Notes under the pieces: generated by a model | What the model saw: only the letters and a program-made list of their open reading frames with translations | Databases searched by the model: none | What the model was told of the DNA's origin: nothing | Shown here: in pieces, positions 59,266 through 61,781 of the stretch | How positions within the stretch are numbered: position 1 is the first letter of the stretch | Layout of the letters: each line of letters begins with the position of its first letter | Translations under genes and position numbers: made by a program | Assembly: GCF_000760215.1 (NCBI RefSeq) | Contig: NZ_JNAW01000004.1 | Span: 124,001-188,000, forward strand | DNA length: 64,000 nt | From: Prochlorococcus sp. MIT 0603 | GTDB lineage: Bacteria; Cyanobacteriota; Cyanobacteriia; PCC-6307; Cyanobiaceae | Reading direction: 5' to 3'

Positions 59266-61203
59266 ATGCCCCAGAAAATTATCGTCGCAGAGCAAGAGCG
59301 AATAGCAGCATTGCTTTCTGATGGCCGAGTAGACAAATTAATCGTTGCACAGGGTCGTTACCAAATTGGAGATGTCTATTTAGGGACAATCGAAAATGTC
59401 CTTCCTGGTATAGATGCTGCCTTTGTAAACATTGGTGCAAGTGAAAAAAATGGATTTATTCATGTTACCGATCTAGGACCTCTGAAAATTAAGCAGAGCG
59501 CCGCAAGTATTACTGAATTACTCAGACCTAATCAAAAGGTTTTAGTACAAGTAATGAAGGAGCCAACTGGGAATAAAGGCCCACGCCTAACAGGTAATTT
59601 AGCGCTGCCTGGAAGATATCTAGTTCTTCAACCTAATGGTCAAGGTGTCAATATTTCTCGTAGAATTAACCTTGAAAATGAACGGAATCGTCTTAAAGCA
59701 TTAGGAGTATTAATCAAGCCTCCTGGGACAGGAATTTTAATTCGATCTGAAGCTGAATCTGTATCAGAAGAATTAATAATTGATGATCTAGAAAGTCTTC
59801 TCAAAAAATGGGAATTAATACAACAAGCTTCAGATCGAGCTACTCCTCCTACTCTTTTAAGCCGTGACGAAGATTTTATACAAAGAGTTTTGCGTGATCA
59901 TATTAATCCAGAATTATCTGAAGTTATCCTTGAAACAACTGAGGGTAGTGATAGGGCTAAAAAGTACCTTTCTCAAGATGATGCAAAAGTAACTGTTCAA
60001 TGCCACAAGCAATCGGACAATATACTTGAACATTACAAGATTGACTTAGCAATCCTAAATGCCCTGAAACCTAGAGTAGACCTCCCTTCAGGAGGCTATA
60101 TCATAATTGAACCAACAGAAGCCCTCACCGTCATTGATGTCAATTCAGGCTCATTTACACGTTCCTCTAACTCTCGTGAAACAGTTCTTTGGACCAACTG
60201 TGAGGCAGCCATAGAAATAGCAAGACAATTAAAGCTTAGAAATATAGGCGGAGTAATAATTATTGATTTCATTGATATGGAATCACGAAGAGACCAACTT
60301 CAACTTTTAGAATATTTCACATCTGCAATAAAAGACGACGCATCGCGTCCACAAATATCTCAATTAACTGAATTAGGATTGGTAGAGCTTACAAGAAAGA
60401 GACAAGGCCAAAATATTTATGAGTTATTTAGCAAAGAATGCTCTAATTGTTCCGGATTAGGACATATTGCCAACATAACTGACAAAGACAAAAGAAATCC
60501 ATCCACATTAAACAGCAATTTAATTCAAAATGGTTCTTTGAATAATGATGAGGTTAATATAGTTGTCAACAACAAGAACAAAATTAATGAATCTACTAAT
60601 GAGAATCATGAAGCGGTAATTTCAAATATTTCACAAAGATCTTTTGACAAAGAAAATAACTTAGAAAAAACAAATCCTAAAAATGAAGCAGAGAATATAA
60701 TTATTGAAATGACAGAAGAAGAAGAGTTTGTATACAGTACTTTAGGGCTAAACCCAACATTAATCTTAGAAAAGCAACCAATTAATATTAATGAAAAAAA
60801 TTCTATTCAAGTAGTCCGCAAGAATAATAAGATCGAAAAGTCAATTAACCTTAGATCAGAAGAATTAGAAGCAGAAGTTCAAAACCTATCTAATAAAATG
60901 AAATCAGAAGTTCCAGATGAGATAAATAGCATAGAGGGAAATACTACTAATTCGAATCCAGAAATCAATCAGCAGAACAAAGTCGAAGTCGAAAACATCT
61001 CAAATATAGAGATGGCAGACTCAACAGATTCATTAAAACCAGAAGCAGAAGATACACGCAGACGAAGAAGACGCTCTTCCAATGAAAAAGACAATCACAA
61101 GGTAGATGGCATAGACGAAACAACGACACAAGATTCAAACCTAACTGAACAAGAAGCAGAAGATTCTCGCAGACGGAGAAGGCGCTCTTCAGCTGCAACA
61201 TAA
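59266..61203 (+). CDS. rne: Ribonuclease E/G (RNase E)
   Basis: Endonuclease that starts mRNA decay and processes rRNA/tRNA. It has 645 residues. The S1 domain is at about 35-120 (GDVYLGTIENVLPGIDAAFV). The catalytic DNase I-like part has VIDVNSGSFTRSSNSRET and VIIIDFIDMESRRDQ, and the zinc-link CSNCSGLGH follows near residue 405. The C-terminal 230 residues are disordered and acidic. They end in the nonapeptide RRRRRRSSA (635-643), known to bind PNPase in cyanobacteria. A second copy, RRRRRRSSN, lies at 598-606. rnhB follows after two bases. Confidence 0.96.
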   Translation: MPQKIIVAEQERIAALLSDGRVDKLIVAQGRYQIGDVYLGTIENVLPGIDAAFVNIGASEKNGFIHVTDLGPLKIKQSAASITELLRPNQKVLVQVMKEPTGNKGPRLTGNLALPGRYLVLQPNGQGVNISRRINLENERNRLKALGVLIKPPGTGILIRSEAESVSEELIIDDLESLLKKWELIQQASDRATPPTLLSRDEDFIQRVLRDHINPELSEVILETTEGSDRAKKYLSQDDAKVTVQCHKQSDNILEHYKIDLAILNALKPRVDLPSGGYIIIEPTEALTVIDVNSGSFTRSSNSRETVLWTNCEAAIEIARQLKLRNIGGVIIIDFIDMESRRDQLQLLEYFTSAIKDDASRPQISQLTELGLVELTRKRQGQNIYELFSKECSNCSGLGHIANITDKDKRNPSTLNSNLIQNGSLNNDEVNIVVNNKNKINESTNENHEAVISNISQRSFDKENNLEKTNPKNEAENIIIEMTEEEEFVYSTLGLNPTLILEKQPININEKNSIQVVRKNNKIEKSINLRSEELEAEVQNLSNKMKSEVPDEINSIEGNTTNSNPEINQQNKVEVENISNIEMADSTDSLKPEAEDTRRRRRRSSNEKDNHKVDGIDETTTQDSNLTEQEAEDSRRRRRRSSAAT

Positions 61204-61205
61204 TC

Positions 61206-61781
61206 TTGCAAGAGTTAAGAACTGCTGGTTTAGATGAAGTAGGCAAAGGCTCATTATTTGGTCCTGTATTTGCTGGCGCAGTAATTTTAGAAAAACAAAA
61301 TGAGATTTACTTGATTAACTCTGGAGTAAAAGATAGTAAGAAATTATCTCCAGAAAAAAGAATGTCTCTATTACCAATAATTAAAGAATATGCTCTGAAT
61401 TGGTCAATTGGACAAGCATCTGCAAGAGAAATTGATTTACTAGGGATAAGGTTGGCTACAGAAAAGGCAATGATTAGGGCCGTGCATAAATTGATTCCTC
61501 AACCTGAAATTCTCTTAATAGATGGCTGTCTCCCTTTAAGATCGTGGGAAGGGCCTCAAAAGACACTCGTCAAGGGAGAAGATAAATCAGTAGCAATAGC
61601 AGCAGCGAGTATTTTGGCCAAAGTCACTAGAGATGAACTCATCAAACAATTGGCACAAGCATATCCTTCATATGGATTAGAAAAGAATGTTGGATATGGA
61701 ACGCTTTTACATCGCAAAGCACTAATAAAACTAGGGGCAACTAAACTCCATAGAAAATCATTTCTCTCGAAGATCAAGTAA
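61206..61781 (+). CDS. rnhB: Ribonuclease HII
   Basis: Removes RNA from RNA-DNA hybrids and single ribonucleotides from DNA. It has 191 residues from a TTG two bases after the rne stop. The catalytic motif is GLDEVGKGSLFGPVFAGAV. Other acidic residues are in LIDGCLPLRS and AIAAASILAKVTRDELI, and the YGLEKNVGYGT motif is present. It is clearly coupled to rne, an arrangement common in cyanobacteria. Confidence 0.95.
   Translation: MQELRTAGLDEVGKGSLFGPVFAGAVILEKQNEIYLINSGVKDSKKLSPEKRMSLLPIIKEYALNWSIGQASAREIDLLGIRLATEKAMIRAVHKLIPQPEILLIDGCLPLRSWEGPQKTLVKGEDKSVAIAAASILAKVTRDELIKQLAQAYPSYGLEKNVGYGTLLHRKALIKLGATKLHRKSFLSKIK

Follow-up and report, generated by a model that had tools for sequence, protein, structure and literature searches.

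A putative second arginine docking motif, derived from the terminal PNPase-binding nonapeptide, in the RNase E tail of one Prochlorococcus subclade

The C4 nonapeptide of Anabaena RNase E, RRRRRRSSA, binds PNPase (Zhang et al. 2014, as reported in PMC10989914 and PMC12489471). E. coli RNase E has two similar motifs, whose key residues Arg1012 and Arg1056 are 44 residues apart, and which engage adjacent protomers of a single PNPase trimer; each trimer takes only one tail, and the affinity of this double site is nearly three orders of magnitude over that of a single site (PMC12489471). RNA binding by the RNase E of P. aeruginosa is shared redundantly among several Arg-rich motifs, and the Arg motif AR1 binds RhlB (PMC11964227). 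The contacts of cyanobacterial RNase E with RNase II and CrhB map to the catalytic region (PMC10989914). Here we describe an RNase E of Prochlorococcus sp. MIT 0603 with two C4-like motifs in its tail. We found no description of this duplication in the literature searched, which was largely open-access.

The two arginine motifs and the DNA repeat

The window (the whole stretch of 64,000 nucleotides that was analysed) contains the following features.

59266..61203, + strand: rne, RNase E, 645 amino acids (PF10150 and NCBIfam profiles); catalytic part at residues ~1–400, non-catalytic tail at ~401–645
61037..61079, + strand: direct repeat unit, copy 1, 43 nt
61042..61056, + strand: acidic flank EAEDT of copy 1
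61057..61086, + strand: copy 1, RRRRRRSSNE, residues 598–607, the upstream C4-like motif; 96% pairwise identity among five carriers
61087..61152, + strand: diverged spacer between the motifs, residues 608–629; 36% mean identity among carriers
61148..61190, + strand: direct repeat unit, copy 2, 43 nt, 88% identical to the copy 1 unit
61168..61194, + strand: copy 2, RRRRRRSSA, residues 635–643, the terminal C4 nonapeptide, a PNPase site known in Anabaena
61206..61781, + strand: rnhB, RNase HII, beginning 2 bases past the rne stop

The open reading frame at 59266–61203 (+) was identified as RNase E by a PF10150 match at 1.9e-91. Its best NCBIfam match was RnaseECyano, at 701 bits and thus under the 900-bit cut-off of that profile, and its TIGR00757 match exceeded the TIGR00757 cut-off. 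The start codon of rnhB is apparently a TTG located two bases after the rne stop (61203–61206), suggesting translational coupling; a promoter and terminator scan of the rne locus gave signals at chance level only. AlphaFold modelling of the whole RNase E gave a mean pLDDT of 47, with most of the tail at 25–40, in a model that the shallow alignment made too poor to use; the low values in the tail are compatible with disorder.

The protein ends with EAEDS-RRRRRRSSA-AT (residues 635–645 from the first Arg), followed by TAA. The terminal copy therefore lies within ~15 residues of the C-terminus (635–643 of 645) and is an ordinary C4, as an earlier note on this DNA had proposed. That note had also described a near-identical motif 37 residues earlier, flanked by EAED and then Thr or Ser, and this motif is indeed present: the R6SS core of copy 1 is encoded at 61057–61080 in the context EAEDT-RRRRRRSS-NEKDN, and its first Arg is residue 598. 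The idea that the nonapeptide itself was duplicated holds for eight of its nine residues; the ninth is Asn, not Ala, in all five carriers described below, with RRRRRRSSN in four of them and RRRRRSSN in G003. In addition, copy 1 is internal, 47–50 residues from the RNase E end, and C4 sits 0–14 residues from the end. Copy 1 is best named C4-derived rather than an established PNPase site, the nonapeptide features that it misses being the Ala at position 9 and the terminal position. The window tail thus differs from the usual C4 tail in having an extra internal copy 37 residues upstream with Asn at position 9, although both of its motifs share the Arg6-Ser2 core of the cyanobacterial C4.

The codon similarity that had been noticed over about 40 bases corresponds to a 43-nt direct repeat, 88% identical, whose two units are offset by 111 nt; the motif spacing is 37 residues. 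Over the 13 codons of EAED-x-R6SS, the copies share 34 of 39 bases (P = 0.0013 under independent codon choice with local codon usage), and over R6SS alone they share 21 of 24 (P = 0.004 in the same test). When the whole 1.75-Mb genome was searched with the R6SS DNA pattern, both rne sites and one site reading RRSRRRS were found, and no other protein of the genome contained R6SS in this search. The tandem duplication of the C-terminal motif suggested in the earlier note is supported by this DNA similarity, by the matching EAED flank and by an origin in one carrier clade, which together point to derivation of copy 1 from C4; at the DNA level, strong evidence comes only from the window lineage.

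Distribution of copy 1 and selection on it

Among the 14 species-level genomes of the window's genus, an rne match was found in 12, and its 3' end was readable in 11. The upstream motif is present in five of these 11 (G000; G003, also labelled L084; G006, also L085 or AG-412-P08; G009, also L083 or AG-409-F19; and G011, also L082) and absent in the other six (G001, G002, G005, G007, G008, and G013). The comparison of RNase E C-termini that had been proposed as a check thus found the upstream copy in four further sequenced species, where it is kept under selection, so the absence from all relatives that the note had named as refuting does not hold. In a tree built from 37 genes around rne and pnp (10396 columns), all carriers fall in one clade with a support of 100/100; a tree of two genes, PNPase and the catalytic part of RNase E, left the window unplaced. 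The carriers have the common signature R5-6-SSNE(K/T), in which G003 has five Arg, one fewer than the others. The flank reads EAEDP, ETEDP, or TDHPG in the other carriers (EAEDT in the window), and the motif-to-motif spacing is 36–39 residues across all carriers. Since the carriers are monophyletic and share this signature, the simplest reading is a single origin of the upstream motif in the common ancestor of this Prochlorococcus subclade, to which the extra copy in its exact form is limited. Two independent origins were rejected on the basis of the 37-gene tree, and an assembly artefact on that of the presence of the copy in five separately assembled genomes.

Two of the genomes without copy 1 display changes elsewhere in RNase E. 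At residues ~296–305, the conserved catalytic SFTRSANARET is altered to SFA-SANSSET in L091 (G001) and to SYTRAANSSQT in L092 (G005), both unusual for RNase E.

The mean pairwise identity among the five carriers is 0.90 in the catalytic part and 0.42 in the tail preceding the motif; it is 0.96 for R6SSNE, 0.36 for the spacer, and 1.00 for the terminal R6SSA. At four-fold degenerate sites, the window is 44–45% identical to the other carriers, which is near saturation. The conservation of the motif (96%, against 36% in the spacer) at such silent divergence indicates that copy 1 is old and under purifying selection in the carriers. In a neutral simulation calibrated on the four-fold sites of the carriers, one Arg codon was kept as Arg in all five lineages in ~2% of cases, and the retention of six Arg codons with at most one lineage-specific loss had P ~6e-10.

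Gene conversion from C4 was considered as a cause of this conservation and ruled out in the three other six-Arg carriers, in which the codons of copy 1 and C4 share 15–18 of 24 bases, a chance level. In the window, the two copies share 31 of 36 bases, whereas window copy 1 shares just 21–25 of 36 with copy 1 of the other genomes. The unusual likeness of the two window copies (21 of 24 bases in the core) is suggestive, but only suggestive, of a later local conversion between copy 1 and C4 in the window lineage.

Arginine patches in cyanobacterial RNase E tails

In 208 distinct RNase E sequences, essentially cyanobacterial, a terminal motif of the Arg/Lys-run-SS type was found in 197 tails. Position 9 of these 197 motifs is Ala in 185 and Asn in none, compared with Asn in 5/5 carriers for copy 1. 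Six tails (L258, L267, L279, L199, L235, and L249) have a terminal Arg run without SSA, including RRRRRRVTSSE, RRRRRRGASE, RRRRRASAS, and RRRRRRSRA, and represent natural variants of the PNPase motif.

All 19 sampled tails of the marine Synechococcus/Cyanobium type have three Arg patches, located at approximately -205 (RRRRGGRG), at approximately -95 (SSGRRRRRGGRG), and at C4. Only C4 is present in the non-carrier species of the window's genus and in high-light Prochlorococcus, and two patches are present in the carriers. These distributions indicate that the window's genus lost two patches and that the carrier clade afterwards regained a second one as a copy of the terminal motif. The cyanobacterial C2 and post-C3 patches resemble copy 1 in being Arg-rich and in lying in the same tail region upstream of C4, but they are of the RRRRRGGRG type, are positioned at ~-95 and ~-205, and were lost in the window's genus. 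In the high-light Prochlorococcus sequences L204–L211, C4 itself is mostly eroded to RKKRRRSSA or RKTRRRSSA, and both upstream patches are missing.

Separate upstream patches were found in other cyanobacteria. L191 (G074, of the same family) has a second C4-like motif, RRRRRSST, 42 residues before C4. L053 and L019 (Phormidesmis/Leptolyngbya) have RRRRKSSN 69 residues and RRRRSAS 53 residues before C4, respectively, and in the Cyanobium lineage weaker RR-SS patches are common 30–60 residues ahead of C4. An additional Arg-Ser patch ahead of C4 is therefore a recurrent solution, and the most exact copy is that of the window's clade. The patches of L191, L053, and L019 and the Cyanobium-type VEVPARRRRGSSR patches were rejected as orthologues of copy 1 on the grounds of their differing flanks, spacing, and phylogenetic position. 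In L285, L290, and L292, which are relatives of L191, RRRRGSSR sits equally far from the end (-53).

Possible roles of the second motif

The tail of the carriers resembles that of E. coli/Salmonella RNase E in having two similar Arg motifs ~40 residues apart in a probably disordered C-terminus. The E. coli/Salmonella motifs (beta2/Pro/Arg1012 and beta1/Pro/Arg1056), however, combine a beta-strand and a proline with a single key Arg and have no sequence similarity to the motifs here, and no His-strand-proline motif was seen by eye near copy 1 or copy 2. The absence of a beta-strand/proline motif makes the window pair at most an analogue of the E. coli type, not a member. PNPase binding has been shown for the E. 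coli motifs, whereas the window pair is known from sequence, and a shared function would imply a convergent origin. The AR and REER repeats of Pseudomonas RNase E are likewise duplicated short Arg-rich tail motifs, but they differ in sequence, have been shown to bind RNA, and vary in copy number.

The reading that we prefer, with a probability of roughly 0.45, is that copy 1 is C4-derived, was retained by selection, and acts together with C4 as a bidentate ligand of one PNPase trimer. C4 would have been duplicated once, in the ancestor of the subclade, giving RRRRRRSSNE, which would then have been kept as a second arginine docking motif. Linked by ~29–30 probably disordered residues, the two motifs would engage matching acidic surfaces of two protomers within a single trimer, which would raise avidity. 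This reading is preferred because two similar selected Arg motifs, 36–39 residues apart in all carriers, parallel the E. coli arrangement, and on this basis we infer that copy 1 binds PNPase, on the same trimer as C4. The acidic flank, which was duplicated together with the Arg run and is mostly retained in the carriers, also argues for this reading. On the other hand, position 9 of copy 1 is unlike that of any terminal C4, the motif is internal, and G003 has only five Arg, all of which count against PNPase docking. In the PNPase segment DGR(A/S)LDEV, the equivalent of E. coli residue 322 is Asp and that of residue 320 is Ala or Ser; of these two acidic positions used in E. coli, the second alone is clearly kept. 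No PNPase residue fixed in the carriers only was found, and hence no signal of co-evolution with the duplication.

The history of the Arg patches, three in marine Synechococcus/Cyanobium, one in the species of the window's genus with a single motif, and two in the carriers, would also suit a copy 1 that is mainly an RNA-binding Arg patch, restoring the function of the two lost patches, with C4 as the nearest source of arginines. The redundant RNA binding by the Arg-rich motifs of P. aeruginosa RNase E (PMC11964227) fits this idea, and the constant SSN in place of SSA would suit a loss of PNPase specificity. The lost patches, however, were RRRRGGRG-like, without SS or an acidic flank, and copy 1 has kept its SS and largely its acidic flank over a long divergence, beyond the needs of a charge patch; moreover, one patch suffices in the sister species and in high-light Prochlorococcus. 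We regard a mainly RNA-binding role as the chief alternative, at just under one chance in three. The fixed Asn at position 9 and the common NE(K/T) context might instead reflect re-specialisation for another partner, such as a helicase, RNase II, the membrane, or a clade-specific protein, and binding of RhlB by AR1 in P. aeruginosa (PMC11964227) offers a precedent. This seems quite improbable given that the known cyanobacterial contacts with RNase II and CrhB are in the catalytic region (PMC10989914).

The earlier note had suggested that two docking sites could recruit two PNPase trimers. This is only one option, as the E. coli/Salmonella motifs, 44 residues apart, hold two protomers of one trimer. 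Copy 1 is nearly the same as C4 and has been kept, and a linker of ~29 residues does not compel same-trimer binding, so recruitment of a second, separate trimer per RNase E protomer, or bridging of degradosomes into clusters, has some appeal. An RNase E tetramer, however, has four tails and a PNPase trimer three sites, so that binding sites would already be ample, and the sole solved double-motif case has one trimer per tail (PMC12489471); we consider this option unlikely, at about one chance in ten. Tandem duplications are frequent in disordered tails, which, together with the loss of one Arg in G003, would fit a neutral, functionless leftover. Conservation far over that of the spacer at near-saturated silent divergence (neutral P ~6e-10) speaks strongly against it, as do the codons of the two copies, which are no longer alike in the other carriers, so that copying from C4 is insufficient as an explanation. 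We give this explanation very little credence. The preferred reading remains the bidentate grip of copy 1 and C4 on one PNPase trimer.

By these comparisons, the tandem duplication of an already known docking motif is genuine, of long standing, and under selection. With the motif duplicated and conserved in a single clade and the other Arg patches lost, the RNA-degrading complex has probably gained a second grip, on PNPase or on RNA. The fuller scenario, in which a lineage short of other Arg patches duplicated its PNPase tag and independently reinvented an E. coli-like two-handed grip on one trimer, has about one chance in three. How the binding sites of an RNase E tetramer are matched to those of a PNPase trimer has been solved just recently, for E. 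coli, and the carrier clade and its single-motif sister species provide a natural paired experiment on valency. The Arg patches, passing from three to one to two, put the stepwise remodelling of a disordered scaffold on record. If the two-handed grip has indeed been reinvented, it would show how one small tandem duplication can turn a one-site degradosome into a two-site one.
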